From Streptomyces sp. NBC_00190 (GTDB lineage: Bacteria > Actinomycetota > Actinomycetes > Streptomycetales > Streptomycetaceae), in NCBI RefSeq assembly GCF_036203305.1, contig NZ_CP108131.1, forward strand, positions 8,556,001 through 8,620,000: a DNA stretch of 64,000 bases. Reading direction: 5' to 3'. The number at the start of each line of letters is the position of its first letter. The stretch's first letter is position 1. Shown one piece after another: positions 27,186 to 48,182 of the stretch. Below the pieces are notes generated by a model. That model saw nothing but the letters and a program-made list of their open reading frames with translations. It did no database searches and was not told the DNA's origin. The translations under genes were made by a program, and so were the position numbers.

Positions 27186-27550
27186 AGGCGTACTTCTCCC
27201 CCCTCGGGCACACAACTCGAGCAGCCCTCGGTACTCACAAATTTGTTTCGGCCACCGGCCGAGAAGACGTGAAAAGTGCACTCCCGCACGTCATTGCATA
27301 GACGGGGTGCGAGCCGAGCATGAACCATCCCGCCGACATCTTCACCCCCCACACCCACGCCCTGACGTGGCACTTCCAGCCGATTTGCATCAATTGCCCC
27401 ACCCTATGCAACGGGTAAGGTGATAAAGTCCACAAGGGATATCGGAACCGTTGGTTTTCCTGGCTTTCGGACTGACAATCAGCTGGCTAATTGTCAGTTT
27501 CCTGCCGGCCGTGCGCCCTCGGCCGCGGCGGCAGAGCGTGGGGGGTCCAC
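27186..27550. promoter_or_regulatory. Divergent promoter region of the surface protein and the Rhs gene
   Basis: A 365-base gap, noticeably richer in A/T than the flanking genes, separates two very large divergent genes and must hold both promoters. I could not pick convincing -35/-10 hexamers or an operator. Confidence 0.4.
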
Positions 27551-33500: not shown

Positions 33501-35068
33501 ACCCGTACGGCAACCCCCGCGGCACCCAGCCCTCCAACTGGCCCGGCAGCCACACCTTCCTCGGCGTCGGCACCGACGACAACACCACAGGCCTCACCCA
33601 CATCGGCGCCCGCGAATACGACCTCTCGACCGGCCGCTTCATCTCCGTCGACCCAATCATCGACATCACCGACCCACTCCAGATGAACGGCTACACCTAC
33701 TCCGCCGGCAACCCCATCAGCGGAGCCGACCCCAGCGGCCTGAAGAGCGAAGAATGCGGCACGCTCTACAACTGCGGCCCCAAGGGGACGATGACCCTGG
33801 GAAACACCGGGGACATCACCGACCGCGGCGGCGACGGCGATAGAGGCGGAAACCTCTCCAGAGGCCACTCGCGCGACAGCAACAGGGGACGCAGCTCATC
33901 AGGCGTTACCTTCAAGGGTCCGCCGACCATCACATCCCCTGACGGCAACGTCCTTACGCTCCCTGCCATCAACACACAGGAATTCATCGACACATACCGC
34001 TCTACCTATCTCAAGCAGGTCGCAGACTGGGGCACCTACGACGACCCCAAGCTGGACTGGAACGTGAAGATAGGCGCCCTACTCGGGGCATGCCAGAAAA
34101 TGGTCGACCGCGGCTGCGACCCCGCCACCTTCATCTACGCCAACGTTAAGTCGACCGTAGAAACGTTCGGCCCCTTTGAAGGCGGAGGCATAACAAGGCC
34201 ATCCGTAAGCATCCTAGGTGCGGGCGGACCCTGCAACAAAAACAGCTTCATAGCAGGCACCGAGGTCCAATTGACGGACGGGACCAGCAAGCCCATTGAG
34301 GAGCTTAAAACCGGCGACGAAGTACTCGCCACCGACCCCGAGACCGGCGAGACCAGCGCCAAAGCAGTCACGGCCACCATCTACACCGAAGACGACAAGA
34401 AATACGTCGACCTCGTCATACAGACCGACGACGGCGTCAACACCATCACCACAACAGACCACCACCCCTTCTGGTCCGAGTCAGACCGCGCCTGGAAGGA
34501 CGCTGGCGACCTCAAGCCAGGCACAACCCTTCGCACCGACGAAGGAACAGCCGCAACCATCGCTCAGACCCGCACATACCGGGCCGTCAACGAGACCTAC
34601 AACCTAACCATCGCCGACCTCCACACGTACTATGTGCTCGCCGGGGCCACGCCGGTTCTGGTTCACAACTGCGGCGGCTATTTCCCCGGCCATGCGACGT
34701 CGTGCACGTGTGAAGGAATCGGAGACATTACCCTTGCAGAGGTTCCTGCGGCACGGCCGGTCTCGCGCGGGGCTGCCGGAATCAGTGATGCAGAGCGTGT
34801 CGCGGATGCTGGATCCATCGCAAGCGGGCACGCCAACGCCAAGCACGGCGGCGAATTCCCTGGACTGTCCGCCAAGGATCTCGATGATTTGGTCCGGGGT
34901 GTGATGAGTAATCCTTCCCGATCGAAACCTCTCGGCAGTGGCAGGAAGGCGTATCTGGGTAATGATGGCTCCACGGTTGTAATCCATGACCCCATGAGTC
35001 CTGACATGGGGACTGTGTTCAGTCGAAGTGCAGCAACTGTGGATGATTACTGGAAGGGTTTGAATTGA
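27551..35068 (+). CDS. Rhs/YD-repeat polymorphic toxin with ricin-lectin insert, HINT domain and C-terminal toxin tip
   Basis: 2505 residues from ATG 27551. A signal peptide lies within about 1-48 (GITLSVVLVASLLPIQAWA). YD-type Rhs repeats run from about 300 to 1770 and resume after a ricin-B-like insert at about 1770-1890 (GKCLDVQDGQTTDGTPVQLQ, GDPNQQWSFG). The Rhs core boundary is at about 2015-2065 (REYDLSTGRFISVDP, NPISGADPSG). A HINT self-cleaving domain spans about 2222-2377 (CNKNSFIAGTEVQLTDGTSK, TTDHHPFWSES, LADLHTYY-like IADLHTYYVLAGATPVLVHN). The variable tip, about 2380-2505, has SGHANAKHGGEFPGLS (H2427, K2431, H2432) and ends MGTVFSRSAATVDDYWKGLN. It resembles small nuclease-type toxin tips, probably a ribonuclease, but its family is not certain. 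The tip and following gene are less GC-rich, which suggests exchange of the tip. Confidence 0.92.
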   Translation: MPPFTAQFRLPGNRRARAKRARLAGRTGITLSVVLVASLLPIQAWAAPPGDRTGVTLPGLQKDLKAEPDQVATAQLDGWNGEPPAPLDAYAPTMVALPAGATASVPLTPASGAEFTQVGALPVSIGKVKDTGTPPSGTWSAAVSDRAKTEAAGIDGAIITITPPADAVNPVDVALDYSKFEDLYGTEWSSRLKLRQFPACFLDIPRPPGCDISTDVPSSNEPGENRVIATLTPAAAPVQGMHTMTAGSGPSVLVASDGASGAGGTYKATSLSPSGTWTAGGSGGGFSWTYPLTVPPAPAGPTPSIAFSYSSQAVDGKTSVTNGQASWVGDGWDYNPGFIERRYRACSDDLKPTTTGKPNNDNDTDKKKGDLCWAGDNVALSLGGSTTELVRDTVSGKWIPASDDGSRVELKTGSGNGAKDGEYWVVTTRDGTRYHYGRHSVGTHGDGTSPQTVTDSVFTVPVFGNHVGEPCHAAAYADSSCTQAWRWNLDYVEDVHGNAMVIDWKQEKNRYAKNEKYEEKDANKRVEYIRGGYPIRIVYGLRADNLAGVPAGRVEFKAEQRCFPDKDTNCDNSQFGSKNAVGWWDTPSALHCKMDAADCYVSSPTFWSRMRLDSVTTYGQRTEGSTALTKVDQWALKQSLPRKRTDTSPPLWLESITRTGYSPSNSTIGVTLPAVSFKANAVDMPNRVAKANNPTTGKPDATPDFDRLRVETILTETGGDIHVTYSAPCALGTTVPDPVKNTSRCFPVRWSADPDAAPEKTPIEVFNKYVVASVTEKDRVAQRPDVTTTYTYEGGAAWAKEDDELSKPELRTYSQWRGYGSVLTTTGKTENAGTPTATEQSQTRTRYYRGMSTPSAKVTLKDSTGTEDLVEDLPQYQGQAAETITYTKAGGSVESRHLTWPSSQRTANRPRIDDAIRQVEAYRTGVEHTDEIQTVSGGKARMVRTRNVLEATYGLVKTVQTDVMENKGTDWTTVKQTCSKPTYIHNTTSNLIGLTAEARQTTGDCTDAGIAAGTLLSAARTSFDAVNAFGTAPTKGLPYQVDTLDAAGTGWITSGRSEYDALGRTVKTYDALGNPSTTAYSPAAGPAFTVTATNALGHTVSNKVDPARGSVLEATDANGRKVTTAYDELGRTTEVRTPSQSPSDKPAYKFEYQLEELKTPAVTTRALKDDGTYSTSIAIYDGLLRPRQTQSEGAGGVLVVTDTLYSANGTVTQTNNGYLAEGGLSTVLFVPVSMTEVHNSTRTAYDGLGRAVRTTTVEKGTAKQSAITQYGGDWTLTRSAMSPTGATPLPGSRAVKTTTDALNRTTAVEHYTSTAASDVDPSLDPNPAARKSSYSYDVRGNLAKVTDPSNNNWTYAYDARGRMTSSTDPDMGTSTFTYNNLDQQTSTTNVYNLARHTKYDALGRKTELRNNSATGTLIASWTYDTLPGAKGQPVSATRNWGNGSYTSEVTGYDSEYRPTGSKITIPDLPTTKGLAGTYAYSTTYTPTGKVQSTTLPATVGGLAAEKLITRYNTDGMVQTMSGLSWYTADTIYSPFGEVLRTATGNAPHRVWTTNTHDPHTGRVTKAESHRETRDPLAQSNLLSSLTYAYDTAGNPTSITDTQPDTRPGATSQSPPLVDRQCFTYDNLGQLTRAWTGKTAGCPTSPTGPGLTEVGSAIAGDAYWQDYEFDAIGNRTKLTEHDPTNSALNDETSYSYGVDTGGQPSLKKQPHALTKVNKTTRTPGSAIDSLSTYTYDQAGNTKTRTIGGDTQTLTWDRGNTLQSATSPGIGSVAVTGLAGKCLDVQDGQTTDGTPVQLQTCNETKPQQWRITGDTVQALGKCLTAEGGKATLRTCDPAKTGQKFTYRSTDKALLTGTNDCVDVPGSNATDGTDLLIWACNGDPNQQWSFGNLTSYLYDASGNRVIQETGSARTLYLGETEVTVNTGGQAIDAVRYYSSPGAPTTIRRTNGKTTGHTVSQQLTDHHNTATTSVEQRDGQAVTRRKTDPYGNPRGTQPSNWPGSHTFLGVGTDDNTTGLTHIGAREYDLSTGRFISVDPIIDITDPLQMNGYTYSAGNPISGADPSGLKSEECGTLYNCGPKGTMTLGNTGDITDRGGDGDRGGNLSRGHSRDSNRGRSSSGVTFKGPPTITSPDGNVLTLPAINTQEFIDTYRSTYLKQVADWGTYDDPKLDWNVKIGALLGACQKMVDRGCDPATFIYANVKSTVETFGPFEGGGITRPSVSILGAGGPCNKNSFIAGTEVQLTDGTSKPIEELKTGDEVLATDPETGETSAKAVTATIYTEDDKKYVDLVIQTDDGVNTITTTDHHPFWSESDRAWKDAGDLKPGTTLRTDEGTAATIAQTRTYRAVNETYNLTIADLHTYYVLAGATPVLVHNCGGYFPGHATSCTCEGIGDITLAEVPAARPVSRGAAGISDAERVADAGSIASGHANAKHGGEFPGLSAKDLDDLVRGVMSNPSRSKPLGSGRKAYLGNDGSTVVIHDPMSPDMGTVFSRSAATVDDYWKGLN

Positions 35069-35454
35069 TGGTCGATCATTCACTGCGGCCGAGCCAAGTG
35101 CTGACGGAGTCCGAGGTCCACTTGGTGCGGCGCGCCCTCCTTGAGTGGGGAGGGCCAGCTCGATGCAGTAATGATCTTGCTGTGGCGATCGGGTTCGCTG
35201 ACTTCCCGGATCTGATCGAGAAGAGCCGCGGGCTGCGCGAGATGCTGGCGAAGGACAGCCTAATTTCATGTGCTGACTGGGCGCGGATCCTTTTGGGGGT
35301 AGAAATTGTCTTCATTAGTGATCTGGCTGGATCTGGTGTTGAATGGTCAGTGACCACAGGATTCGGTGATGAATTCACCGTATCGACCATTCGGTCGATC
35401 CAGCGAAAGCTGGCCGGCCTCGTTCGTCCATATTATGGAAGGCGTCCGCAGTAA
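35068..35454 (+). CDS. Probable immunity protein for the Rhs toxin tip
   Basis: 128 residues starting at ATG 35068, overlapping the toxin stop as TGATG, so the pair is translationally coupled. It is a small soluble acidic-to-neutral protein with no signal peptide (SEVHLVRRALLEWGGPARCS, IGFADFPDLIEKSRGLREML, CADWARILLGVEIVFISDLA). The base composition is lower in GC than the upstream Rhs body, like the toxin tip. No family was recognised. The assignment rests on position, size and coupling: in Rhs systems the gene directly after the tip encodes the cognate antidote. Confidence 0.75.
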   Translation: MVDHSLRPSQVLTESEVHLVRRALLEWGGPARCSNDLAVAIGFADFPDLIEKSRGLREMLAKDSLISCADWARILLGVEIVFISDLAGSGVEWSVTTGFGDEFTVSTIRSIQRKLAGLVRPYYGRRPQ

Positions 35455-35550
35455 GTGTCCTGTCATCCGTCTTTGTGAGGGCGGCGCCCCACCTGTATTT
35501 CAGTTACGGGTACTACTGAACTTGAGTACGTGATGTCGGTCTGATCGTGG

Positions 35551-36614
35551 TCAGTCGTCCATGGTCAGGCCGGTTCCCGTGAGGCATCCATCGACGAGGT
35601 GCGGTCGGTACTGAATCTGCTTGAGGGTTCGTTTCACGGCCCTGGCCAGCTGGTCGAGGTTGGCGGCGGCGAGGTTGCCAATGGTCCGTTTGACCAGCGA
35701 CCAGATGCCTTCCTGGGGGTTGAGGTCGGGTGCGTAGGAGGGAAACTGGAAGACCGTCAGCCAGTCGGCGTTGGCTTCGATGAACGCTTTCATCTGCGGC
35801 ATCAAGTGAGCGCGGAGGTTGTCCCAGACGAGCACGACCGGAGCGTCGAGCTGGATGTGTGCGCGCACGATCAGGTCCCGGTAGTCCCGCCAGGTGAAGC
35901 CCTTGGGCTCGCCCTTGCGGCCCCGGTAGACGTGGAAGCTGTAGAACATCCGGGACCGTTCGCCCTGTCGGAAGCAGGTCATCCCGGCCATCGAGACCCG
36001 GCCGGAGCCCCGGCAGCGGACACGCACGACCGGGGTCCGGCCTATCCGGCCCCAGGTCCTGGCGCGCGGCGGTCTCAGCGACTGCCCGGCCTCGTCCTCG
36101 AAGACGAGCCAGGCTCCGCGAGCCGCCGCGGCGCTTTTACCCGCGGCCAGACCTCCCTCTTCCACAGCTCGACGGCCGCATCATCGTGCTCGATCGCCCG
36201 ACGGGTCGGCTGCTGTCAGGACCAGCCATGGCGCTTGAGCAGCCGCCACGTTCCCTCCACCGTGTAAGTGACGTGGAACAGTCGGCCGATCAGAGTCTTC
36301 ACCCGGGCCAGCGTCCACCGCTGGTCCGCCCAGCCGTGAACCAGCGGACCACGCTCCAACTCCCGCTCAAGCCTGTCTATTTGCCGCTCGCTCAGCCTCG
36401 GCCTGCCCGGCGATCCCTTCGAGCGAACCCCGGACTCCCCGGCCTCCCGCCACTGGCGGCGCCATCGCTCCACCGACCGCTCGCTCACCCGCAACACAGC
36501 CGCGATCTGCCGGTTCTTCTCCCCGCCCACGAAGCGTTCCACGGCCTGCAACCGGATTCGCTCCCGCGCGGCCCTCTCGGCGTCGGTCAAACCGCCGCCC
36601 TGCGCGTACCTCAC
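35551..36614 (-). pseudogene. IS630-family transposase remnant
   Basis: The N-terminal part, 36614-36216, has ERAARERIRLQAVERFVGGE and RQIAAVLRVSERSVERWRRQ (helix-turn-helix). It ends in a TGA where TGG is expected (HGWS-stop-QQPTRRAIEHDD). The C-terminal part in another frame, from about 36120, has WLVFEDEAGQSLRPPRARTW (first Asp), PVVLVWDNLRAHLMPQMKAF (second Asp) and PSYAPDLNPQEGIWSLVKRT (Glu). A nonsense codon plus a frameshift near 36140 inactivate it. It lies between the toxin/immunity pair and a methyltransferase fragment and truncated the latter. Confidence 0.88.
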
Positions 36615-36655
36615 AGCCCAGAGCTACCGGAGCCGACCGGTCACTGTCCGGCGAA

Positions 36656-37277
36656 CAGCCCCGACATCACCCAATCAAGTTCAGTAGCCACCTCGTCGAC
36701 CCGGTACCCCGCCACCTGGAACAGGCCGCCGCCTATGCCGGATGCACGACCGAGCTGGGCGACGCCCGCCACCTGACCGCTGCGGCCGGTACGTACGACG
36801 CGGTGCTGCTGCTCGGCCCGCTGTACCACCTGACCGAACGGGACGACCGGATCACGGCCCTGCGGGAAGCGCTGCGCGTGGCCCGGGGCCCTGGTCGCGG
36901 CTGCGGGGATCAGCCGGTACAGCCTCATGTAGGAGTACACGGTCCACGCCCAACTCCCCCCGGAACTCCTGCACTGAGAGGTAGCCGCAGTGCAGTCCGA
37001 CGGCCGGTACGACGGCAGTCGTGGCTTCACTGTCGCCCACTTCCACACTGGCGCCGAGATCCTTGCTGAAGCCGCCGCGGCCGGATGGCGGAGCACCCGC
37101 CTGCACGGGATCGAAGGCCCGGGCTGGGCGTACCTGTCGGCAGCCGAGCGCTACGCCGGAGCGGAGCACGCTGCCGGGCTTCTGTCCTCGGCCCTCGACA
37201 CGGCACGTCTGGCGGACCTCCATGGGGCTGCCTTCGCCAATGCATCCGCCCACATGCTCATCACCGCCACGACCTGA
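36656..37277 (+). pseudogene. SAM-dependent methyltransferase remnant
   Basis: The plus strand reads SHLVDPVPRHLEQAAAYAGC, ELGDARHLTAAAGTYDAVLL and LLGPLYHLTERDDRITALRE, the middle of a class I methyltransferase. The glycine-rich SAM motif is missing upstream, where IS630 lies. A frameshift near 36890 leads to ALVAAAGISRYSLM with an in-frame TAG. A further TGA follows, and then the C-terminus (GRYDGSRGFTVAHFHTGAEI, GWAYLSAAERYAGAEHAAGL) runs to the stop at 37275-37277. Several defects make it clearly dead. Confidence 0.8.
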
Positions 37278-37425
37278 ACACGGCTATGGCCCCGCGCACC
37301 GACGGGCGGGGCCGTAGGGAGATGAATGCGGTGCTGGATTTGATGGCGTAGGGCCCGCTCCTCGTGAGGTGCGAGCCCTACGCCTGCCTGATCCGGCCGG
37401 TTCGTGAGCGATTCGGTCGGTTGGG

Positions 37426-37731
37426 TCAGTCTCCGGATACGCGGACCAGGGCGCCGTTGGTGTTGCGCTCGTATGTCCGTGCTGCGTTCTTGTGGAGCTT
37501 GTTCTCGACCTCGGCGGCGAGGTCGATGCCGGTCATCTCGGCGAGGGCGGCGGCGTAGAGGACGACGTCGGCGAGTTCCTCGCCGAAGTCGGGCAGACCT
37601 TTGCGCCATGCGGTGAACGCTTCGCCCAGCTCGGCGTTGAGGAGGCCGAACTCCATGGGCACGTCAGTCGTGTTGAAGCCCTTCTCGACCTTGTTCTCCC
37701 AAGTGAGTTTCTGGGCTTCGCGGATGTCCAT
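37426..37731 (-). CDS. MazG-like nucleotide pyrophosphohydrolase
   Basis: 101 residues, all-alpha NTP-PPase fold. The metal-binding MazG motif is present: E34xxE37 (LNAELGEAF) and E52xxD55 (GEELADVVLYA). Enzymes of this family hydrolyse nucleoside triphosphates, often non-canonical dNTPs, to the monophosphate plus pyrophosphate. It is the last gene of the seven-gene operon, 82 bases after the kinase-like gene. In this setting it may remove a modified or surplus dNTP made or released by the upstream enzymes; that is inference. Confidence 0.85.
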   Translation of the reverse strand: MDIREAQKLTWENKVEKGFNTTDVPMEFGLLNAELGEAFTAWRKGLPDFGEELADVVLYAAALAEMTGIDLAAEVENKLHKNAARTYERNTNGALVRVSGD

Positions 37732-37813
37732 GGGGGTGCCTCCGGCATGGGGTGCATGTGATGCGGAGGAGCCTAGCGGGGGTGAATCGCCCAGAGTTCC
37801 AATGCAGTGATTC

Positions 37814-38314
37814 TCAGCCAGTTGCGCAAGGAGTGTCCGGTTCGGGACCGAAGGTGACGACCTCGGCGTGGGAGCTGATCGTGTGGAACGCCTGCTCGTA
37901 CGCGGCGGTGAGCTCCGCGATCTCGGAGAGCGGTGGTGCGGTGCCGTCGCGCTGGAGCAGACGGGCGTGGATCACGAGCGGCGACGCGGTGAGGTGGACG
38001 AGGACGCCCCGGCGGGTCGTCACCAGGTCCACGAGCTCCAGGGTTTGGGCCCAGGTGAGGCGGGATCCGTCGCGGTAGAGCGGACCGTAGACGAGTTCGC
38101 TTACGAAGCAGCGGTCCAGGACGAGCCGGCCGGGCTTGGCCAGAAGTTCCTTGTACCGGCCGGTGAGGGCGACGGCGTCGGGAGTGCGCGGGGAGTGCAC
38201 GACCTGGAATCCGTGCCTGTCGGCCAGCTGGCGGGCCAGGCTGCTCTTGCCCGTGCCGTCACTGCCCTCCAGGGCGACGGTGTCGTAGCGGGCGGCCAGG
38301 GCGGCGACGTTCAT
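37814..38314 (-). CDS. Thymidylate-kinase-like P-loop protein
   Basis: 166 residues, ATG 38314 overlapping the previous stop (ATGA). Walker A is GSDGTGKSS (17-25), preceded by ALE as in dTMP kinases. A DRCFVSELVYGPLYRDGSRL segment fits the DRY/DRS substrate region, and the LID-like part contains RLLQRDGTAPPLSE. It is shorter than standard Tmk (about 205-215 residues). The likely reaction is ATP-dependent phosphorylation of a nucleoside or nucleoside monophosphate. Because it follows a deoxyribosyltransferase in one operon, a deoxynucleoside-derived substrate is plausible. Confidence 0.82.
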   Translation of the reverse strand: MNVAALAARYDTVALEGSDGTGKSSLARQLADRHGFQVVHSPRTPDAVALTGRYKELLAKPGRLVLDRCFVSELVYGPLYRDGSRLTWAQTLELVDLVTTRRGVLVHLTASPLVIHARLLQRDGTAPPLSEIAELTAAYEQAFHTISSHAEVVTFGPEPDTPCATG

Positions 38315-39234
38315 GACGCGAGTCCGGACGTGACGCCGGTCAGGGTCGTGGCGTGGCCGGTGCTGGCGTACTGCACCATCAGGTTCCGCCAGTTGGGCTC
38401 ACGGCCCTGGGCGTGGGTGTAGACCGGGCGCGGCTGGTAGGCGATGACAGGCTGGTGGCGGGCGGCTGCGGCGCCGATCAGGAGTGCTGCGCCGGGCGGG
38501 GCCTCGGGCCCGGAGACGTCCACGACGAGGGTGGTGGCGGCCGCGGCGCGGTTCCAGTCCTCGGCGGATCCGGTGGTCGGGTCGGCGGCGGTGAAGCGGC
38601 TTGCGGTGCGGGCGGTGTGTCCGGCGCTGCGGACGGCGTTGAGGAGCTCGTGATCGTCGGTGTAGGGGGACGGCTCGATGTAGACGCCGTGCTGGTCGGG
38701 GGTGGCTGGCGGAGCGGGCGCGGGCGCGGTCAGCAGGGCGTTGATCCCGACGTTGATCGCGGTGTCCAGCTGGGTGTTGTTGCGCTGTCCGAAGGTGGTG
38801 AAGCGGCTGCGGGCGCTGCTGGCAGGACCCAGAGTGGGGACGCGGATCACCTGGTTCGCGATGGTCTCTACGAGGGGATCGGGGAACTGCCAGGTGGGCG
38901 CGTGTCCGTGGGGGTCGTAGGTCTGGAAGTCAGTGGTCAGGACGGTGACGGGGACGCCGAGGGCGGCGGCGTAGCCGATCTCCAGGCACACGCCGTCGTC
39001 GAGGCTGGGGCCGTGCAGGAGGGCGATCATCCCGGTGAGGGTGGTCAGGCGCTCGGTGTCGAGTTCGTAGAGACGGCGGCCTTTGACGTCGGCGATGAGG
39101 TCTTCCTCGTCGGTGTCGCAGAACGGCAGGAAGACGTTGTCAGGGCCGGCCTTGTCGGCCAGTTGTTTGGCGACGCGGGCGCCCAGGGCGCGATCGTGTG
39201 CGGAGAAGAGCCGGTGGGCGACGTAGTACACCAC
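38311..39234 (-). CDS. Nucleoside 2-deoxyribosyltransferase-like protein, two-domain
   Basis: 307 residues from GTG 39234. The first half (1-about 150) is a nucleoside 2-deoxyribosyltransferase fold: YVAHRLFSAHDRALGARVAK, RRLYELDTERL and the active-site region SLDDGVCLEIGYAAALG with D79/D80 and the nucleophile-type Glu E85. Such enzymes cleave the N-glycosidic bond of 2'-deoxynucleosides and swap or hydrolyse the base. The second half (about 180-307) looks like a diverged repeat of a related Rossmann-like domain (VVDVSGPEAPPGAALLIGAA) lacking an obvious catalytic Glu. Standard enzymes are about 150-160 residues, so the tandem arrangement is unusual. Confidence 0.82.
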   Translation of the reverse strand: MVYYVAHRLFSAHDRALGARVAKQLADKAGPDNVFLPFCDTDEEDLIADVKGRRLYELDTERLTTLTGMIALLHGPSLDDGVCLEIGYAAALGVPVTVLTTDFQTYDPHGHAPTWQFPDPLVETIANQVIRVPTLGPASSARSRFTTFGQRNNTQLDTAINVGINALLTAPAPAPPATPDQHGVYIEPSPYTDDHELLNAVRSAGHTARTASRFTAADPTTGSAEDWNRAAAATTLVVDVSGPEAPPGAALLIGAAAARHQPVIAYQPRPVYTHAQGREPNWRNLMVQYASTGHATTLTGVTSGLAS

Positions 39235-39259
39235 GTGGTTGTCCCTTCGGTGGGATGGG

Positions 39260-40081
39260 TCAGCTTCGGCGCGGTGCGGGGATCAGGAGCGGCGGTGCGG
39301 TGAGGTGCTCGGCGGCGGCATGGACGGCTTGGTCGAGGGCGCGGGCGGTGTCCTGGCTGGCGAGCCAGTGGGCGAGGAAGGTTCCGGCGAAGGTATCGCC
39401 GGCACCGGTCACGTCGGTGGGGTTCACCTGAGGGGGCTGGGCCGCAGCGAGGGGCTGGCCGTGGGTGAGGAGCCGGGCGGGGCGGGGGCCGTCGGTGATG
39501 GCGACGAGCGGCAGGGTGTCCGGCTCCAGTGCCTCGGCCAGGAGGCGGTACTCGGCGGCGTTGGTGAAGATGACGGCTGCGCGGTGCAGCCAGGGGGTGG
39601 CGGCTCGGATCATGTCGGCGGCGCTGGGCAGGAAGAGGTCCACGCTAAATCCGGCGCGCTGGTTAGTGAGTTCGACGAGGAGAGGCTCGGGTTGGAGGGG
39701 GCGGCGCAGGCTGATGTGGAAGAAGTCGCCGGCGTTGGCGGTGATGTGGTCGAGCGCGTGGCGGGTGAGGCCTTCGGTGATGCCGTAGTCGGCCTGGCTG
39801 GAGGTCAGAGTGTCGTCGGTTCCGTAGGTGAGGGTGAAGGCCGCGCTGGGGCCGTGGGCGATGGCGAGGGCGGACCAGTCGATGCCTGGCTGAGGGTGTG
39901 TTGCGGGGAGCCCGGCAAGGTCGTGGCCGATGACGGAGACGGGGGCCGCGTGGGCGTCCGCGCGGGCGGCGGCCAGGGCGGTGTGGAGGGCAGCGCCTCC
40001 GAGCCGGTCGCAGCGGCGGCCGTCGGAGTAGTGGCTGGTGTCGTGGGAGATGTTCCCGACGACCGATAAGCGGGTGTGCAC
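39260..40081 (-). CDS. PfkB-family sugar/nucleoside kinase
   Basis: 273 residues from GTG 40081. It starts with SVVGNISHDTSHYSDG, GGAALHTALAAARADAHAAP, the usual PfkB N-terminal glycine-rich substrate region. It ends with the PfkB signature DVTGAGDTFAGTF (223-235), in which D229 is the predicted catalytic base. Family members (ribokinase, adenosine kinase, 2-keto-3-deoxygluconate kinase) phosphorylate a sugar or nucleoside hydroxyl with ATP. Here it sits between a glycosylase-like and a deoxyribosyltransferase-like gene, so a (deoxy)ribose or nucleoside substrate is plausible but not shown. Confidence 0.85.
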   Translation of the reverse strand: MHTRLSVVGNISHDTSHYSDGRRCDRLGGAALHTALAAARADAHAAPVSVIGHDLAGLPATHPQPGIDWSALAIAHGPSAAFTLTYGTDDTLTSSQADYGITEGLTRHALDHITANAGDFFHISLRRPLQPEPLLVELTNQRAGFSVDLFLPSAADMIRAATPWLHRAAVIFTNAAEYRLLAEALEPDTLPLVAITDGPRPARLLTHGQPLAAAQPPQVNPTDVTGAGDTFAGTFLAHWLASQDTARALDQAVHAAAEHLTAPPLLIPAPRRS

Positions 40082-40091
40082 GGTCGTCTCC

Positions 40092-40895
40092 TCAGCGGCC
40101 GGAGTGGGTGCAGTCGACGATCCGGGCGCACAGGGGCCGGCGGGTGCACAGGTTCTTCGGCGGCTTGTTGAGGTACTGCCGCTTGAAGTAGATGAGGACC
40201 AGGTGGACCCACCAGGTGGGAGCGGCGTCTTCGGGGATGGTCACCCGGTGGCCGTGGTGGGCGGCCATGGCGCGGAAGGTGTCGGGGTCGCGGGTGACGG
40301 TGCCTTCGAGGAGGTGGCGCAGGCGCTCGTGGGCGACGGGCCCGGAGGGCAGGGTGATGCCCAGGGCGGGGGCGAGCTTGGTGACCATGCCGGAGTCGAC
40401 GGGGATGATTCCGCAGTGGTAGCCGCGGGCGTAGAGCACGGCGCACTGGGCGACCTTGTACGAGGCGCCGTGGACCTGGTCGGCAATCTGCTGGATCAGG
40501 TCTTTTTGGGCGAGCTCGGCGGGGTCGGTTTCGTCCTTGGCCCACTGCTCGAAGAGGAGGTTCAGGGAGCGCAGGTAGTCGATGCGGGCCTGGGGTAGTC
40601 CGATGGGCCTGGCGAGGTCGGTGACTTCGGTGTCGGTGGACGCGGCGAGTGCGTCGAAGCCGAGGGTGTCGGCTTCGCGGATGACGGCCGCGTAGGACGC
40701 GATCATCCGGTAGTTGACGCGGGTGGACCATCCGGCGGCGAGCATGCGCATGCGGGGGTCGGTGATGCTGGTCGGCCACCACCGGTTGTTGTCGTGGTTG
40801 GCCTCGACCTCCGTCCGGATGTCGGCCAGGGCGGCGGCTGTCTCTACGAGGCGCGTGATCCGCTTGCGCTCGACCACGGGGGGCTTCGGGTTCAC
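40092..40895 (-). CDS. HhH-GPD DNA glycosylase / endonuclease III-like protein
   Basis: 267 residues, GTG 40895 overlapping the preceding stop (GTGA). The region IADQVHGASYKVAQCAVLYA aligns with the helix-hairpin-helix of EndoIII, placing K147 at the catalytic-lysine position. It is followed by GIIPVDSGMVTKLAPALGI, with D167 at the catalytic-aspartate position. The C-terminus has C250-x5-C256-x5-C262, reminiscent of but not identical to the 4Fe-4S loop of EndoIII. Family members excise damaged or modified bases from DNA. In this operon it could act on a modified base or a base-like metabolite. The overall similarity is distant, so substrate and even DNA binding are open. Confidence 0.72.
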   Translation of the reverse strand: MNPKPPVVERKRITRLVETAAALADIRTEVEANHDNNRWWPTSITDPRMRMLAAGWSTRVNYRMIASYAAVIREADTLGFDALAASTDTEVTDLARPIGLPQARIDYLRSLNLLFEQWAKDETDPAELAQKDLIQQIADQVHGASYKVAQCAVLYARGYHCGIIPVDSGMVTKLAPALGITLPSGPVAHERLRHLLEGTVTRDPDTFRAMAAHHGHRVTIPEDAAPTWWVHLVLIYFKRQYLNKPPKNLCTRRPLCARIVDCTHSGR

Positions 40896-41596
40896 GGGTT
40901 GGCTCCCTGCTTGAGGTGGGCGGCGTAGGCGGCCATGGCGGACACGGAGGATACGACCGGCCGGTCCAGCTGGTGGGCGAGTTCGGAAAGGATCGGCTGG
41001 GTGCGCCAGCCTGTGCAGGACAGGACTACGGCGTCTGCCTGGTCCAGCGCGTCGCCGGGCATGGACAGCACGAGGTCTCTGGCGCGGGCGGGGGCGACGT
41101 CGGGGTAGCCGTCGGCCAGGCCGAGGCTCGCGCAGGCGAGGACCTTGACCCCGTGGGTGTGTAAGGCATTCGCTTCGGTGCGGGTGACGTCGTCCGGGTA
41201 CGGGGTGGCCAGCACGATGCGGCGGGCGCCGAGCCGGGTGAGCTCGGCGAGCAGGGCATCGAACGCGGTGGCCACGCCTTCGGGTACGGGAGTGGTGCCC
41301 GGGGTGAACCCGGCGGAGGTGCAGCCGAGCAGTAGGCCGTCGAGCGGGATGTGCCGCAGCGAGTCGGCTCCGTCGGTGGCTGCCGCGCGCAGACCGTCCC
41401 AGAAGCGGCTGTCGATCGCCGTCGTTCGGGAGGCGGGCACGAGACGGGCGTAGTGGAAGACCACACCGTCGGGGGCGAGGAGCGGCAGTTCCTCCTCGAT
41501 GGCGACGTTGGCCCATGGCACGAGGACGCCGACGCGGCGCGGCCGGCCGCCCCCGGTCAGGGAGGCGGCCGTCCGCTGGTCAGGCCGCGACGGCAA
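40892..41596 (-). CDS. Asp/Glu racemase-superfamily protein (maleate isomerase type)
   Basis: About 234 residues; it overlaps both neighbours. The start is uncertain (TTG 41596 is the most upstream possibility). The two superfamily cysteines are present: C92 in LLLGCTSAGFTPG and C194 in AVVLSCTGWRTQPIL. The first strand reads RRVGVLVPWANVAIEEELPL, as in maleate cis-trans isomerase and arylmalonate decarboxylase relatives. These enzymes act on carboxylates by proton transfer without cofactor. The role in a nucleotide-centred operon is not obvious; it may process a dicarboxylate side chain or precursor. Confidence 0.83.
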   Translation of the reverse strand: MPSRPDQRTAASLTGGGRPRRVGVLVPWANVAIEEELPLLAPDGVVFHYARLVPASRTTAIDSRFWDGLRAAATDGADSLRHIPLDGLLLGCTSAGFTPGTTPVPEGVATAFDALLAELTRLGARRIVLATPYPDDVTRTEANALHTHGVKVLACASLGLADGYPDVAPARARDLVLSMPGDALDQADAVVLSCTGWRTQPILSELAHQLDRPVVSSVSAMAAYAAHLKQGANP

Positions 41597-43103
41597 GGCG
41601 CTGCCCGAAGATGACGCGGGGGGCGTGGCCTGTGATGGCGAGATCGCCGCTGGTCCCGACGGGGGTGGCGGTGTTGGGCTCGATGATCTGGATGGAGTAC
41701 GAGCCCAGGCGCCGCCACCAGGTGCCCATGTCGTTGACGAAGTAGGAGTGCAGGCCCGGTACGAGGAGCCCAGAGGGGTAGACGCGCTCCTTCATGGGCT
41801 GGTCCCATCCGTGGTCGATGTCGGCCTTCCACGTCTCGAAGTGCTCGGCGGACGGTGCCAGCGGCTGGCCGTTCTGCGCGGCGAGGGGGGTGCCGGGGAA
41901 CGCGCGGACCTGCCGGACGTTGGTGCGGTGGCACATCAAGCCCGCGTGGTAGATGCGGGTGAGCCAGGTCAGGTTGGCGATGTGGGTGGCGTGCGTCTCG
42001 CCGGGCATGCCGTAGATCAGGTTCAGGCCGGGCAACAACATCGGCAGTCCGCCCGGGCCGCGTTCGCCACCGGCCTCGTTGACGTGCTGGACGGCGCGCA
42101 TCAGGACGTCGGGGGTGCAGGTGAGGGTATTGCGTTCGATGACGACCAGGTCGAAGGACTCGATGCCCATGGGCGCGCAGTTGCCTTCGGTGCAGAACTC
42201 GGCGACCAGGCCCGCGATCTTCCGGCCGACAGGGGCCGCTACGGCGAGCGGGTCGGCGTTGTCGATGTGGAGGACTTCCAGGTCGGGGCAGGCCTTGCGG
42301 ATCCCGGACAGCAGGGCGCGGATCTTGTCCACGTCGCGGTTGTGGTAGGAGAAGAAGCAGGTCTGCTGGCCGAGGCGGAGGTGCCGGACCCCGGCCGCGT
42401 ACAGCTGACCGGCTTCCTCCACGATGTCGTCCACGTCGCGGAAGGCGACGATGGGGGACTTGCCAGGCTCGTTGCAGAAGTCGCAGAAGTTGCGTCGGGT
42501 GCAGCCGCGGTACATCTCCAGCTCGGCGATCGGCGTCCACGGCATCTGCTCGACCAGGCCCGCGAAGGAATCGCGGTCAGCGCGCAGTCGGCCGTACGGG
42601 GCGGAGGTGCGCGAGCCGAGGGCGATGTCCTTTGAGGTGATCGTGTGGGTGTGCGAGGCGTCGAAGAGGCCGGCGTATTCGGCGGGTTCGGACAGCATGA
42701 AGGTGGTCATCGGGCCCAGCAGGTAACGCTTGCCGCGCACGCACGACATGGCGCGGGCGATGTCGGCGAGACCGCCGTTGACGGCATGCAGGTGCACTGA
42801 GGGCACCTTGTCGCCGCCGATGACGATGACCTCTTCGGCATCGCGAAGCAGCCGGATCGCGTCATCGCGATTGGCGGTCGTGGAATAGGTGAGGGGGTCG
42901 CTGTGCGGGGCGGCCACGTGGGGCTTTCCGCCGTTGAGGCTCCAGCGGACATCGTCGATCGTCAGGTACCGCACATCGTTCCCGGGGCGGGCCTGGCGCA
43001 GGGCGGAGTACGCGGTGCGCACGTAGGTGGAGATGTACGGGGGGACGCCGAGCCCGCTGGGTTCGACGGTGTAGCAGTCCAGTACGACCGAGTGCTTCGT
43101 CAT
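41580..43103 (-). CDS. Radical SAM protein
   Basis: 507 residues from ATG 43103 (aaggga upstream). The 4Fe-4S motif is C201-x5-C207-x2-C210 (YRGCTRRNFCDFC), a spacing unlike the canonical Cx3Cx2C. About 200 residues precede it, resembling a B12-binding-like Rossmann region (EEVIVIGGDKV, GKRYLLGPMTTFML). The barrel follows, with HLRLGQQTCFFSYHNRDVDK and LPGLNLIYGMPGETHATHIA. The C-terminal region has SGLLVPGLHSYFVNDMGTWW. The layout resembles UPF0313/methylthiotransferase-like radical SAM enzymes. It is the first long gene of the seven-gene operon and a likely key catalyst. An in-frame open extension lies upstream (see the short ORF at 43342). Confidence 0.88.
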   Translation of the reverse strand: MTKHSVVLDCYTVEPSGLGVPPYISTYVRTAYSALRQARPGNDVRYLTIDDVRWSLNGGKPHVAAPHSDPLTYSTTANRDDAIRLLRDAEEVIVIGGDKVPSVHLHAVNGGLADIARAMSCVRGKRYLLGPMTTFMLSEPAEYAGLFDASHTHTITSKDIALGSRTSAPYGRLRADRDSFAGLVEQMPWTPIAELEMYRGCTRRNFCDFCNEPGKSPIVAFRDVDDIVEEAGQLYAAGVRHLRLGQQTCFFSYHNRDVDKIRALLSGIRKACPDLEVLHIDNADPLAVAAPVGRKIAGLVAEFCTEGNCAPMGIESFDLVVIERNTLTCTPDVLMRAVQHVNEAGGERGPGGLPMLLPGLNLIYGMPGETHATHIANLTWLTRIYHAGLMCHRTNVRQVRAFPGTPLAAQNGQPLAPSAEHFETWKADIDHGWDQPMKERVYPSGLLVPGLHSYFVNDMGTWWRRLGSYSIQIIEPNTATPVGTSGDLAITGHAPRVIFGQRLAVAA

Positions 43104-43341
43104 CGGTGATCCCTTCACCTGGTCTTCGGTCTCGCCCGCCAGGGGTGGCGGGCGAGGGTACGCGCGTGGGGATACGCGGGCCGTGGCGGCAGGTAGCGCG
43201 GAGGACTTGGGCGCGGCCAGCAGGGACGCCGAAGGGGGCATGTGCTGGCCACGCCGGGGAGGTGATTCCGCCTGCGACTGCTCGACCCAATCAGGAGTCA
43301 GCTGAAGGCGGTATCCCCCGAGACCGGTCTGGCGGTGTGCT

Positions 43342-43389
43342 TCACGGGGGCCCGCCAGGCCGGGCGAGGGCGGTGCGCTGGTCCTTCAT
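43342..43389 (-). CDS. Short Shine-Dalgarno-led ORF upstream of the radical SAM gene
   Basis: ATG 43389 is preceded by AGGAGG (43395-43400) with a 5-base spacer, the strongest ribosome binding site in this operon. It encodes only MKDQRTALARPGGPP before TGA. The stop follows a C5 run: losing one C would carry the frame on as GPREAHRQTGLGGYRLQLTP and, without a stop, straight into the radical SAM frame. So it is either a 15-residue leader peptide or the true N-terminus of a longer protein obscured by a one-base indel. The two readings cannot be separated from sequence alone. Confidence 0.45.
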   Translation of the reverse strand: MKDQRTALARPGGPP

Positions 43390-43443
43390 GGCGTCCTCCT
43401 GTGAGATGGCCCGAGACCGTTGTCTTCGCTATCGTGCGCCGGT

Positions 43444-43731
43444 ATGACCGAGCCGTTCGCCCAAAACGAGGACCGTCCGGCCTGCGGAATCTGTCCGGCG
43501 CACCGGCTGCCGTGCGAGTCGTTCGTGGTGTACGACCGGCCGAGCCGTGAGTGTCCGTTCGATCCGGCCGACGGGTTCCGCTATACCGCCGAGAGGACTC
43601 CGGCGTGCGTGCATCCGCACAAGATCGGCGTTGAGCCGGACCGGATCGCCCCGCCACCGGCGGCTCCGGAATCCGCGGACGAACCGACGCCGCGGGCCCC
43701 GAGGCGGTGGTGGGCGTTGGGCAGGGGCTAG
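43444..43731 (+). CDS. Small cysteine-containing hypothetical protein
   Basis: 95 residues from ATG 43444. It has clustered Cys/His in the N-terminal half (RPACGICPAHRLPCESF, SRECPFDPADGF, TPACVHPHKIG), suggesting metal binding. A proline-rich C-terminus ends RRWWALGRG. It is divergent from the radical SAM operon, and its end overlaps the convergent gene at 43728 by four bases. Family unknown; it is likely a real actinobacterial small protein. Confidence 0.5.
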   Translation: MTEPFAQNEDRPACGICPAHRLPCESFVVYDRPSRECPFDPADGFRYTAERTPACVHPHKIGVEPDRIAPPPAAPESADEPTPRAPRRWWALGRG

Positions 43732-44301
43732 GCGGCGGCGAAGTCGATGTCGTGCTCGCGGCCGGCGCGGTCCATGCGGATGCTCGCGTACCGCGCGGTG
43801 AGGACCTGCACACGCCGGTCGACTTCGGTCTTCGGGAGCCAGTACCGGCGGGGCTCGCCCCACGCGAGGCGGAAGGCGAGGTGGGGGGTGAAGTCCCCGT
43901 CGGTGAAGTCGGTGTGCTCCTGGTCGGTCTGGTGGATGAGCTGGAACCCGATGCGTGCCGCAATCCGCGCGCGAAGAGCTGGGGCTGGGCGATCATGGCG
44001 TGGGTCATCTCGTCCACCGGCACCGCGATGGGGATCTCGGACATGACCTCGTCGCCGGTCAGGTCGAAGACGGCGGCCTTGAGGACGAGGGCGCGCAGCC
44101 TTTCGGTGAACAGCGGCGCCTTGTCCTGGTAGAGGTTCCAGCGCTCGATGACCGGGAAGCCGGTGAAGCCTGCCAGTCGGAGGAGTATTCCAGGGTGGCG
44201 GCCTCGAAGGCGCCGAACTCCACGTCCGCGGTGATCGCGGCCAGGATCTCCTTCGCCCGGCCAGCGGTCTGGGCGGGGGTGGGCATGATGCTCGTGCTCA
44301 T
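43728..44301 (-). pseudogene. Hypothetical protein gene with two frame breaks
   Basis: ATG 44301 has a good Shine-Dalgarno (gaaggagc). The product would read MSTSIMPTPAQTAGRAKEIL, FGAFEAATLEYSSDW in the first frame. It continues FTGFPVIERWNLYQDKAPLF, IPIAVPVDEMTHAMIAQPQL in the second, and LIHQTDQEHTDFTDGDFTPH, RIDMDRAG-like SIRMDRAGREHDIDFAAA in the third. Together this looks like one soluble protein of about 190 residues with breaks near 44165 and 43970. Family not recognised. Either a decaying gene or two indel errors. Confidence 0.6.
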
Positions 44302-44536
44302 CTGAGGTGCTCCTTCGGTGAGGTGGTGCCCGGCCTTGCCACGGCGGGGTACGGGCAACGGGGGTGGTGCATCCCTCCGGCCTGGTGTCGTGTCGTTCCC
44401 CGGGCCGGGGGAACCACCCGTCCCCAACGGGGGAGGGGGCGGGCGGGAGCTGGAACCGGCCCCAGCCTCCGGGACTCGGTGGCTCGCCTCTGGGAGGGGG
44501 AGCGGCGAGCCAGTTCACCGGAAGTCGGGGCCAGGG

Positions 44537-44815
44537 CTATGGGGGTGGCGGCGGGAGGTTCGGGGCGGACGGCGCGAGGGGCGCGTGTGCGACATCGTGG
44601 ACCTCGTCGCAGATGCCGCCGATGGCGAGGGCCAGGCCGCCGAGGTTCGCAGCGATCAGCGCCAGGCCGAAGAAGGCGTCCCCGTCGACTCGGCTGCGCC
44701 AGCTCTCCCAGTGGCGGGATGGGGAGGGAGACCGGTCCGCCGATCTCACCCCACCCTGCGGGCATCCCACGATCGGCGGCGTGCGGTGCGGCCTGCGCGG
44801 CTAACGGTGGGGGCG
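44537..44815 (-). pseudogene. Small membrane protein, probably frameshifted
   Basis: GTG 44815 sits directly at the end of the HATPase gene and begins TPPPLAAQAAPHAADRGMPA, IPPLGELAQPSR. In the neighbouring frame the sequence continues DGDAFFGLALIAANLGGLAL with AIGGICDEVHDVAHAP, a single hydrophobic membrane segment. The two halves make a sensible product of about 92 residues if one base is restored near 44690. If not frameshifted, a GTG at 44770 could produce the membrane part alone. Function unknown; it is coupled to the HATPase gene. Confidence 0.5.
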
Positions 44816-45268
44816 TCACTGGCCTGCCTCCTCGGCGGTGGTGACTTCCGCCCACACGCGCTTGCCCCACCGCATCCGCTCGGTTCCCCACTCGGCGGCG
44901 AGCGCGTCGACGAGGAACAGACCGCGGCCCGACTCGTCGAACGGCGCCGGCTGCTTCGGCACGGTGGGGCCGTTCGGGGAGCGGTCGATGACCGCGACCT
45001 GTACGCGGTCCTCGCCCAGGCGGACAGCCTTCACGCGGATCAGGTCGCGGCCGTAGTGGTCCACGGAGTTCGTCACGAGCTCCGACATCACCAGGACAGC
45101 GCTCGCCTCCAAGGCCTCCAGGCCCCAGACGTCGAGCGCCTTCCTCACGAGCTGCCGCGCGGTGGCCACGGACTCCGCCACACACGGCAGGGTCTGGGCG
45201 TAGAGGGGCAGATCAAGCGGGTCAGGGATCGAAGGCAGCATCAGCTTCTCGCTACTCAAAAGGGTCAC
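44816..45268 (-). CDS. HATPase-domain anti-sigma-factor-type ATP-binding protein
   Basis: 150 residues from GTG 45268 (gggag seven bases upstream). It has the single-domain GHKL ATPase fold typical of Streptomyces RsbW-like proteins: the N-box LVMSELVTNSVDHYGRD, the G1 box VAVIDRSPNGPTVPK and the G2 box ESGRGLFLVDALAAEWG. Such proteins bind sigma factors or partner regulators, or act as stand-alone serine kinases. It overlaps the small gene upstream (GTGA). It lies in a block divergent from the XRE/TPR regulator at 45698, an arrangement reminiscent of whiJ/abaA-like regulatory modules in Streptomyces. Confidence 0.88.
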   Translation of the reverse strand: MTLLSSEKLMLPSIPDPLDLPLYAQTLPCVAESVATARQLVRKALDVWGLEALEASAVLVMSELVTNSVDHYGRDLIRVKAVRLGEDRVQVAVIDRSPNGPTVPKQPAPFDESGRGLFLVDALAAEWGTERMRWGKRVWAEVTTAEEAGQ

Positions 45269-45490
45269 CGGCTGCTCCCGACGGTGCGGGAGGGAGAGGG
45301 CAGTTCGGCTGTGGCCATGGCGGTCATCGCAAGTCCGCCGGGATCGGCCCGGTAGCGCCGGTTCCCCCTCCCGCGACCACCCTGCGGCAGACGACTTCAG
45401 GCCGTACTCGGCGCGGGCGAGCGTGCCGACAGCGCGGGCGTCACCCAGTACGCGGAAGCGAGGGCTGGGGTGATCGGGGGGCGGGTTCAT
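45265..45490 (-). pseudogene. Small hypothetical gene coupled to the HATPase gene, one frameshift
   Basis: ATG 45490 starts MNPPPDHPSPRFRVLGDARA, VGTLARAEYGLKSSAAGWSR. Near 45370 the sensible frame changes to RYRADPGGLAMTAMATAELP, ending TVGSSR with a TGA that overlaps the GTG of the HATPase gene. The total length is one base off a multiple of three. It would encode about 75 residues. Family unknown; position and coupling suggest a small partner of the regulatory block. Confidence 0.5.
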
Positions 45491-45697
45491 CACGTGGCAC
45501 CTGCCTCTTTGCCGGGGCCGCCGCTGCCGCCTGTCGGGGGTGGCAGGCGGAGCGGCAGCGGTCCAGTGGGTGCTCGCGGCGCCGAAGTTGTGGCAGCCCG
45601 AGCGGCTCACATCCATCCAACGCGGGTACGTGCTGGGGTGGCAGGGGCCACACTGGCCTGACGGTTGAACGGGTTGAACCGAGGTTCGGGGGTTGGA

Positions 45698-47050: not shown

Positions 47051-47305
47051 CCGTAGCGCAGTACGTGGGGTCCGCTCCCCGGATACGGGGCGGGCCCGAC
47101 GCGTCATTCGCTGCGCGCCGGCAGGCGGCCACGGACGAACCGGCGGGCCTGGTGCGGCTGCTGACCACCGGCTGCTGGTCGTGGTGCTGGTGCTCGGGCT
47201 TGTGGTCATCTCGCCTCTGCGTCTTCGTCGATGTGCGGGGGGCAAGGGCGGCGCTAACACCCGCACCTGGAACGGGGCAACGGCATGACCGACCAAGGAG
47301 CAATC

Positions 47306-47975
47306 TCACGTGGTGAGCTTCGCGAGTCTCTTGTAGCAGGTCAGGGCTGCGGCGAGGCCGAGGAAGGCAAGGAAGTGGCTGCCTTTTCGTTCGTATCGGA
47401 CGGTGAGGCGGCGGTAGCCGAAGAGCCAGGAGATCGACCGCTCGATCTTCCAGCGGTGCCGAAACCGTGCCGCCCGCATCCTGCTCCGGGTGCGGGCCGT
47501 ACGGCGTCAAGCCTTTCGGTCACTTCGGACTGTGTCTGACGCCGAGCCGACTCAGTTGTCGGGGCGGAGAGGCGCGGCCTCGCCCGCCTGCGCGATTCAG
47601 TGCCCGGCGGTCGCCGGCGGCTTGCTCGGTCGTCGGACCGCAGGGCGGCGAGGAAGTGCCTGCTGCACGTGGCCGGTGAGCCGCGGGTGAAGGCGTCGGT
47701 CACCTGGTGGAGTGACTGCCGGCCGGCGAGCAGTTGCTCGGGCAGGCCGGGGCGTTCGTCGATGATCCGGGGGGCGGAGAAGTCGTCGCGTACACCACAG
47801 CCGTGAATACCGCCCGCTCGTCTACCGGGGCAGTAACCCCGCCTTGCGGACGGGACGTGAACCTTGGCATCAACAGAGCTACCAGCTCCCACATTTCGTC
47901 CAGAATCAGCCGACGCGACAGATCAACCCTCACGGTGCAGCATCGTGCTGCGCCTCGAAGTGTCACGTGAGACAT
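47306..47975 (-). mobile_element. Degenerate IS5-family remnant
   Basis: The minus strand retains the transposase N-terminus (LILDEMWELVALLMPRFTSR, RPQGGVTAPVDERAVFTAVV) near 47780-47960 and the C-terminus (FRHRWKIERSISWLFGYRRL, LAFLGLAAALTCYKRLAKLT) at 47306-47470. The intervening catalytic region is scrambled by deletions and frameshifts. Not functional. The C-terminal block resembles the remnant at 61688-61895, suggesting the same IS subgroup. Confidence 0.75.
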
Positions 47976-48182
47976 CTTCTTAGGTCTGATCACATCAAAC
48001 TCTTCTGCCCCGCAAAGAGACTTCGGTTTCACGTCCTGCGGAAAGCCAGCCCTGTGACCCTCAACTCTCATAGACAGCAAGGGCGTAGCGCGTTAGCTTG
48101 TATCTGCTGCACCGAGAGTCTGTCTGTGCTTCGATGAAATGCCAGAAACTGATTAGGCATCAGATGTCAGGAGGTGGGTGCA

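Follow-up and report, generated by a model that had tools for sequence, protein, structure and literature searches.

The window analyzed here is a stretch of 64,000 nucleotides from Streptomyces sp. NBC_00190 (G000:C1:8556001-8620000), located near one end of the linear chromosome (contig of 8,633,858 bases). Its minus strand carries a run of seven open reading frames (ORFs), extending from position 43103 to 37426 (~5.7 kb), which is called the cassette below, with genes g1 to g7. The first gene, g1 (41580..43103), encodes a radical SAM protein of 507 amino acids (aa; Radical_SAM, 8e-9). It is followed by g2 (40892..41596), which starts with TTG, overlaps g1 by 17 bp and encodes a member of the Asp/Glu racemase superfamily that resembles arylmalonate decarboxylase (AMDase) and maleate isomerase. 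The g3 gene (40092..40895; 267 aa from a GTG start) overlaps g2 by 4 bp (GTGA) and encodes an EndoIII-fold protein resembling the helix-hairpin-helix (HhH) GPD family. Next come g4 (39260..40081), encoding a kinase of the PfkB/ribokinase superfamily (PF00294, 2e-17), and g5 (38311..39234), encoding a tandem nucleoside 2-deoxyribosyltransferase (NDT; PF05014, 2e-18, in two stretches). The g6 gene (37814..38314), with a 4-bp ATGA overlap with g5, encodes a P-loop protein resembling deoxynucleoside monophosphate (dNMP) kinases. Lastly, after a gap of 82 bp, g7 (37426..37731) encodes a MazG-like deoxynucleoside triphosphate (dNTP) pyrophosphohydrolase (PF12643, 7e-6). An initial annotation, made from the sequence alone, had described seven ORFs on one strand that overlap or lie 10-82 bp apart. 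The ORF coordinates confirm this, as the successive junctions from g1 to g7 are -17, -4, 10, 25, -4, and 82 bp.

In tblastn searches with the proteins encoded by g1 to g7 of the window, the cassette was traced to 28 places, all of which were found via g1 or g3. Not counted here are two plasmid hits (H3 and H7), the five genomes in which g5 is only partial, and L016, which was dropped as the same place as L035. All seven genes are present in the same order and on the same strand at 25 of the 28 places, i.e., 22 genomic loci (L031-L049, L017, L019, and L020, with L031 being the window) and three plasmid loci (L064, L065, and L104). Of the remaining three, L018 is truncated within g3 by the end of its contig, and two retain no more than remnants of g1, in pieces at the place behind L029/L030 and in a single piece at L105. 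At least three of the 22 genomic loci carry lesions, namely a frameshift in g1 of L037, a g4 in L032 that is matched from residue 107 onward, and a 2.7-kb insertion (about 3023-5700) that splits g6 in L048.

The distribution of the cassette is patchy. In the family sample, g3 is found in 12 of 297 genomes and g5 in 17. The 12 near-full-length g5 matches (E 3.5e-96 or better) fall in the same 12 genomes as full-length g3, and no near-full-length g5 occurs without g3 among the 297. In G154, G221, G233, G237, and G085, g5 is present in partial pieces and g3 has no match; these pieces likely represent decayed cassettes. At the level of the order, g1 is present in 10 of 391 genomes, one of which has fragments only. 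Among 394 genomes of the class, g1 was detected only in the window genome at E 1e-30. Of 396 phylum genomes searched at 1e-3, 13 matched, and the 12 besides the window genome gave weak partial radical-SAM matches. At the protein level, relatives of g1 or g3 are found in Sphaerisporangium, Nonomuraea, Actinoplanes, Actinomadura, Pseudonocardia, Dactylosporangium, and others, among the matches listed (120 of 499 and 120 of 485); these matches concern individual g1 and g3 proteins.

The genes of the cassette share their history. Across 19 genomes, the pairwise protein distances of the cassette genes are mutually correlated (r 0.48-0.94, all p ≤ 0.002), while those between cassette genes and gyrB give r 0.16-0.47 (p 0.019-0.214). 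The broken copies (L037 g1, L032 g4, and L048 g6) and a fused g5 (L035) are taken in as they stand, which possibly blurs these correlations. The ratios of nonsynonymous to synonymous substitution (dN/dS) range from 0.02 to 0.39 for all seven genes in seven pairs, the sole exception (0.43) being the frameshifted g1 of L037, which indicates purifying selection on all seven. The seven genes are therefore inherited together, as a single accessory unit on which purifying selection acts. The initial annotation had treated them as one operon, and the neighborhood analysis bears this out: rather than being scattered or housekeeping genes, the seven are co-conserved, co-inherited, and accessory. A set of unrelated accessory or housekeeping genes that are neighbors by chance is so improbable that it can practically be disregarded. 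Operons in a single genome can indeed assemble by chance, but such a reading is contradicted by the 25 of 28 places that retain all seven genes in order (the rest being a contig end and two remnants), by the correlated gene histories, and by the lack of near-full-length g5 without g3 in the 297 family genomes.

The cassette is, moreover, a mobile unit, found in a chromosome-end repeat, on plasmids, and beside an integrase gene. In the window genome, the ends of the linear chromosome form a terminal inverted repeat (31861..51860), inside which the cassette lies, so that it is present twice. This repeat is 100% identical over the whole 20-kb left-end stretch compared, a span that is set by the comparison, so that the true limits may differ. 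Four Streptomyces plasmids match g1 over 99% of its length with 71-74% identity. In 7 of the 22 genomic loci, an integrase-type gene (534-658 aa) and a small XRE gene directly follow g7; the pair in L033 was checked with Pfam. The 23 loci scanned for tRNA genes yielded a single one (Thr, in L042, ~0.6 kb past the integrase), and hence no general tRNA attachment site. The window genome and G387 are nearly identical in gyrB (distance 0.020) but differ in the cassette (0.376), and probably got different cassette copies. Vertical descent occurs as well, because several close pairs, such as G365/G409, agree in both gyrB and cassette. A phage origin of the cassette was considered and rejected: g1 has no match in 50,697 phage records, and none was confirmed in viral contigs. 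Among the phage records listed for g6 (15 of 95), the relatives share 32-35% identity and are all from Microbacterium phages. No phage relatives were found for g7, and g5 had one weak match.

Family-type catalytic residues of g2, g4, g5, g6, and g7 are invariant in 22 aligned rows, and it is these residues that carry catalysis in the respective families. The profile matches of g2 are Amdase (PF17645, 3e-14) and Asp_Glu_race (7e-7, just under the cut-off); its structural matches are AMDase and maleate isomerase chains, and both C92 and C194 are invariant. In g4, the conserved motifs are GAGD229T, D14, and N174xxE177. Its structural matches are sugar kinases, ribokinases, and adenosine kinases, and its best NCBIfam match is ribose-1-phosphate kinase (2e-11, far under the cut-off). 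The catalytic Glu of NDTs sits in a D-x-G-x-x-x-E-type motif, which the N-terminal half of g5 carries as DDGVCxE85 with an invariant E85; this half also matches NDT structures. The C-terminal half, which ends in GREPNxRNLM, is degenerate, with no Glu visible by eye at that position. In the whole genome, PF05014 matches are restricted to the two cassette copies. The g6 protein contains DGxGK and DRxFxSELVYGP motifs, matches AAA_28 (4e-6) and the PHROG 761 thymidylate kinase profile (1e-15), and has SPbeta YorR (2axp, 9e-12) as its nearest solved relative. MazG-type enzymes bind metal through an ExxE ... ExxD motif, and g7 has the corresponding residues as E34xxE37 and E52xxD55, with E34, E37, E51/E52, and D55 invariant. 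Its nearest solved relatives are 4qgp and DCTPP1 (7e-6), and MazZ (7ody, 1.6e-4) ranks behind DCTPP1 and others.

Most family labels of the initial annotation hold by profile, i.e., radical SAM, racemase superfamily, PfkB, and NDT, and the MazG-like profile falls just below the cut-off (26.6 vs. 27 bits). Two labels need changing. The deoxythymidine monophosphate kinase label of g6 is lost: a thymidylate kinase identity is rejected on scores far below the cut-offs (16.6 bits for both Thymidylate_kin, with a cut-off of 27, and DTMP_kinase, with a cut-off of 83), and g6 belongs to the broader dNMP-kinase-like P-loop proteins. The other is g3. Its window copy matches the HhH-GPD profile weakly (E 0.25); with a limit of E 10, the profile is matched by 28 of the 32 family members (best 5e-6). 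By fold, g3 belongs with the HhH-GPD/EndoIII proteins. Nevertheless, a DNA glycosylase label is not to be assumed, because both the hairpin and the cluster ligands are altered. The G-x-G that precedes the catalytic Lys in EndoIII-type glycosylases is replaced by GAS (23/32), QAS (8/32), or HAS (1/32), followed by a conserved [YF]K. The Fe-S ligands of such glycosylases are arranged as C-x6-C-x2-C-x5-C, as in Nth from the same genome, and g3 has a C-terminal C-x5-C-x5-C-x-H in 32 of 32 members instead. K144 and D164 (numbering of a 264-aa piece) are invariant. Since the DNA-binding hairpin and the Fe-S ligands are changed, the substrate of g3 may be a free nucleotide. The phage thymine hypermodification enzymes, which are HhH-like pyrophosphorylases, were tried as a match for g3 and rejected: no such Pfam family is listed for the 32 members, and the literature search gave nothing useful.

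The radical SAM motif of g1 is CX5CX2C (C201, C207, and C210). The protein aligns end to end (410/507 residues) with methylthiotransferase structures, including RNA-bound MiaB, and both tRNA- and protein-modifying enzymes are among these alignments. The RimO/MiaB alignment runs to residue 505-506 and thus takes in the radical SAM core and a TRAM-like end, at fold level only, as the profile search gave no TRAM sequence match. There is also fold similarity to the B12 radical SAM enzymes MgmA, OxsB, and TsrM. The predicted architecture of g1 is therefore methylthiotransferase/B12-radical-SAM-like with a TRAM-like C-terminal end, in which the link to cobalamin is by fold only. A methylthiotransferase identity is rejected, because the three Cys of the auxiliary cluster are not conserved: the N-domain columns hold Cys at positions 10 (34/37), 55 (30/37, Ser in the window), and 121 (32/37), none of them invariant. 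Four extra Cys (249, 309, 329, and 391) are present in 37 of 37 sequences. Several cassette g1 proteins have been named by JGI 'radical SAM superfamily enzyme with C-terminal helix-hairpin-helix motif', a kind of radical SAM protein (presumably COG1031) that also has a haloarchaeal member.

With respect to regulation, the gap between g6 and g7 contains a -10-like box, CGCTAGGCT (37770..37778, minus strand), as part of a predicted separate g7 promoter. Counted by eye, 13 of 21 aligned gaps have the exact box and 20 have it with no more than one mismatch, L048 with its insertion being left out. Its conservation suggests that g7 can be transcribed alone from its own promoter. Upstream of g1, the motif GTRCAACCGRACAAC occurs once in 15 of the 22 genomic loci; in the window it is absent, even at two mismatches. 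The cassette is accompanied in 15 of the 22 loci by a related XRE/TPR-type (tetratricopeptide repeat) protein of ~460 aa, which is divergently encoded ~220 bp upstream of g1 in 14 loci and lies downstream in L035. The corresponding protein is about 70% different in L031 (the window), L043, L044, and L019, and none was called after the ORF filter in L032, L020, and L049. Regulator and cassette distances are correlated (r 0.76, p 0.001, n=19). The XRE/TPR label was mostly given by eye, with one sub-threshold TPR match (L019); on plasmid L064, the neighbor of the cassette is annotated as a tetratricopeptide repeat protein.

The window has such a regulator of 461 aa at 45665..47050 (plus strand). 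It clusters with the cassette-linked regulators, from which it is about 70% different, and has no Pfam match at 1e-3; given its position about 2.6 kb off, its link to the window cassette copy is uncertain. Between the cassette and an HATPase-like gene ending at 44816, a frameshifted small gene is seen by eye at about 43728-44301 (minus strand). This position is the site of the divergent regulator in most other loci, suggesting that an insertion moved the regulator away from the window cassette. Closer to g1, 28-53 bp upstream, a perfect inverted repeat (arms of 11 bp, loop of 4 bases; 43131-43156, minus strand) can be made out by eye; a visual check of upstream sequence in L043 and L044 revealed no such repeat.

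An active nucleoside or deoxynucleotide pathway, as proposed in the initial annotation, is the natural reading of the cassette, because the catalytic residues of g2 and g4-g7 are invariant. Since g5, g4, g6, and g7 would form a plausible chain from deoxynucleoside over mono- and di- to triphosphate, synthesis or remodeling of a modified deoxynucleotide is the best-supported form of this reading. We tentatively propose that the seven enzymes constitute a horizontally transferred pathway for the synthesis or remodeling of a modified 2'-deoxynucleotide, whose pool the pathway would control through a dNTP pyrophosphatase of its own. In this proposal, the radical SAM enzyme g1 and the two-Cys isomerase/racemase-type g2 would produce or modify a base, which could be carried by a nucleotide or by a nucleic acid. 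The g3 protein would then cleave the N-glycosidic bond of that nucleotide and free the base, as DUF2419 does for queuosine, after which g5 would transfer the base to 2-deoxyribose from an ordinary deoxynucleoside; the order of these steps, from g1 and g2 through g3 to g5, is a guess. The nucleoside would be phosphorylated by g4, and further to the diphosphate by g6 and to the triphosphate by the host. Finally, g7 would hydrolyze either the normal competing dNTP or an escaping toxic dNTP, and its putative separate promoter would fit such pool cleaning or removal of a competitor. The product would most likely act as an antimetabolite, inside the cell or against competitors. A quite improbable variant takes a detour through a polymer, in which g1 would build the base in tRNA or DNA, g3 would excise it, g5, g4, and g6 would convert it to a dNTP, and g7 would remove the normal counterpart. 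If true, bacteria could poison DNA or change its letters in the manner of phages.

Several results weigh against the proposed pathway. Its substrate, product, and activity are proposals, and neither g2 nor g4 has a sequence-level tie to a nucleoside substrate. For g3, alignment to Nth in three modes placed K144 on the Nth Lys in one and D164 on the Asp in none, the profile comparison with Nth (hhalign) was not significant, and the best match of the g3 profile to solved structures was NTHL1 (0.03 over 47 residues). The mean cassette distance is still weakly correlated with that of gyrB (r 0.34, p 0.031), so that some vertical descent is likely. Apparent fusions, which could have served as evidence of linkage, were set aside. 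They are single cases, g2-g3 (P0117), g4-g5 (P0312), and g5-g6 (L035), of which P0117 and L035 look like in-frame joins and P0312 like a frameshift; they may reflect stop loss or frameshift and carry little weight, because none recurs among the 120 matches listed. Moreover, there is no exporter among the seven genes, which is unusual for a secreted antibiotic. Together with the mobile, decaying distribution, this favors an intracellular role.

Such an intracellular role could also be defensive. The cassette would then, upon infection by a phage or plasmid, make a chain-terminating or poisonous dNTP or drain a dNTP, with g7 and g3 protecting the host. This is possible, albeit rather doubtful. 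Viperin-type radical SAM enzymes make 3'-deoxy-3',4'-didehydro-nucleoside triphosphates (ddhNTPs), and the compact 5.7-kb size, the patchy presence (12/297 and 10/391 genomes) with degraded remnants elsewhere, the plasmid-borne copies, the position beside an integrase gene in 7 of 22 loci, the lack of an exporter, and the nearby regulator would all suit a defense system. Sparse defense-gene matches in the flanks, however, give no help, and the PADLOC 2023 anti-phage profiles only matched the P-loop of g6, with none of the other six proteins matching at 0.01.

The enzymes might instead dismantle a modified nucleoside or nucleotide taken from the environment or from RNA or DNA turnover, with g1 and g2 working on the freed part. 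The two glycosidic-bond-type enzymes (g3 and g5), the ribokinase-type g4, and the precedent of DUF2419 in queuine salvage (PMC9406330, in the available part of the text) agree with salvage or detoxification. This is nonetheless unlikely, as a dNMP-kinase-like and a MazG protein are odd for a catabolic route, the conserved unit includes no transporter or permease, and its distribution is mobile and decaying. A shade less probable still is a role in nucleic acid modification, where g1 would modify tRNA or DNA at a base, or host DNA would receive a modified dNTP from the pathway, and g3 would excise the base for editing or recycling. The end-to-end alignment of g1 with methylthiotransferases, RNA-bound MiaB included, points in this direction. 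Phage base replacement combines a kinase with a pyrophosphatase. The g6 and g7 pair resembles this logic, MazZ being a MazG-like enzyme in a modified-dNTP pathway according to the available part of its description (PMC8342488). On the other hand, the auxiliary-cluster Cys of g1 are not conserved, the hairpin glycines of g3 are lost, and the unit has neither a polymerase nor a DNA-binding partner.

Around the cassette, other features are seen. Beyond the regulator, several loci (e.g., L036 and L033) carry a short-chain dehydrogenase (7 of 120 flanking ORFs scanned) and HATPase_c_2 (9 of 120). In the window, an RHS-type ORF of 2525 aa lies at 27491-35068 (plus strand); by eye, it contains YD repeats, a part resembling ricin B, and, near its end, a HINT-like part. 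Beyond it lies an IS630-like transposase that is split in two (36614-35551), likewise recognized by eye. No known RNA families reached the gathering score in positions 36000-47500.

The gene system as a whole appears to be new; every enzyme superfamily in it is known. The initial annotation knew of no named system with this composition. Likewise, no description of the seven-gene unit was found in the literature searched, which leaves out most subscription journals; PMC13118837 and PMC12924846 are unrelated to it in their available parts. In the cassette, which is strictly conserved and found in many Streptomycetaceae, seven enzymes of known folds form an undescribed combination, and the size of 5.7 kb makes new nucleotide chemistry directly testable in a laboratory host. 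If the cassette does yield a modified deoxynucleotide, it could represent a new class of nucleoside antimetabolites, a new nucleotide-based defense, or the equivalent, in cells, of the base replacement known from phages. Besides, it provides a defined biochemical context for HhH-fold proteins of a family whose DNA-binding motif is altered.

Compared to known enzymes, g1 has its fold in common throughout with methylthiotransferases (MiaB, RimO, and MtaB) and B12 enzymes (MgmA and OxsB), and its TRAM-like end with MiaB and RimO. It differs from these enzymes by its CX5CX2C motif, which stands in place of CX3CX2C, by its unconserved auxiliary-cluster Cys, and by its four extra Cys. A haloarchaeal radical SAM protein encoded on a Natronorubrum bangense plasmid is ~30% identical over 97% of g1, but has CX3CX2C and lacks the extra Cys; within 12 kb around it, no other cassette-type gene is annotated. 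On this plasmid (L063, 11971-14224), the g1 homolog is followed by a TRAM-domain gene. This arrangement and the TRAM-like end of g1 are a hint that the ancestral role was related to RNA. DUF2419/Qng1, the queuosine nucleoside/nucleotide glycosylase, has a DNA-glycosylase fold, as proposed for g3. In the available part of its description, it acts on a nucleoside (PMC9406330), and a solved mutant (7ulc) contains queuosine-5'-monophosphate according to its entry title. At the level of gene clusters, those for tubercidin, ascamycin, albucidin, and other nucleoside antibiotics are actinobacterial nucleoside pathways as well, and some of the available literature text also mentions radical SAM enzymes. 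NDT is, however, unmentioned in the available text of the matches listed, and the cassette has no exporter or resistance gene. The Z-cluster of phages (PurZ, MazZ, and DatZ; cyanophage S-2L) is likewise a small gene set in which a MazG-like pyrophosphohydrolase reshapes the dNTP pool, as far as the available text goes (PMC8342488). Unlike the Z-cluster, the cassette lacks PurZ- and DatZ-type proteins (no adenylosuccinate synthetase or HD family among the seven) and is actinobacterial, with no phage copy found; instead, it brings together radical SAM, racemase-type, HhH-fold, PfkB, and NDT enzymes.

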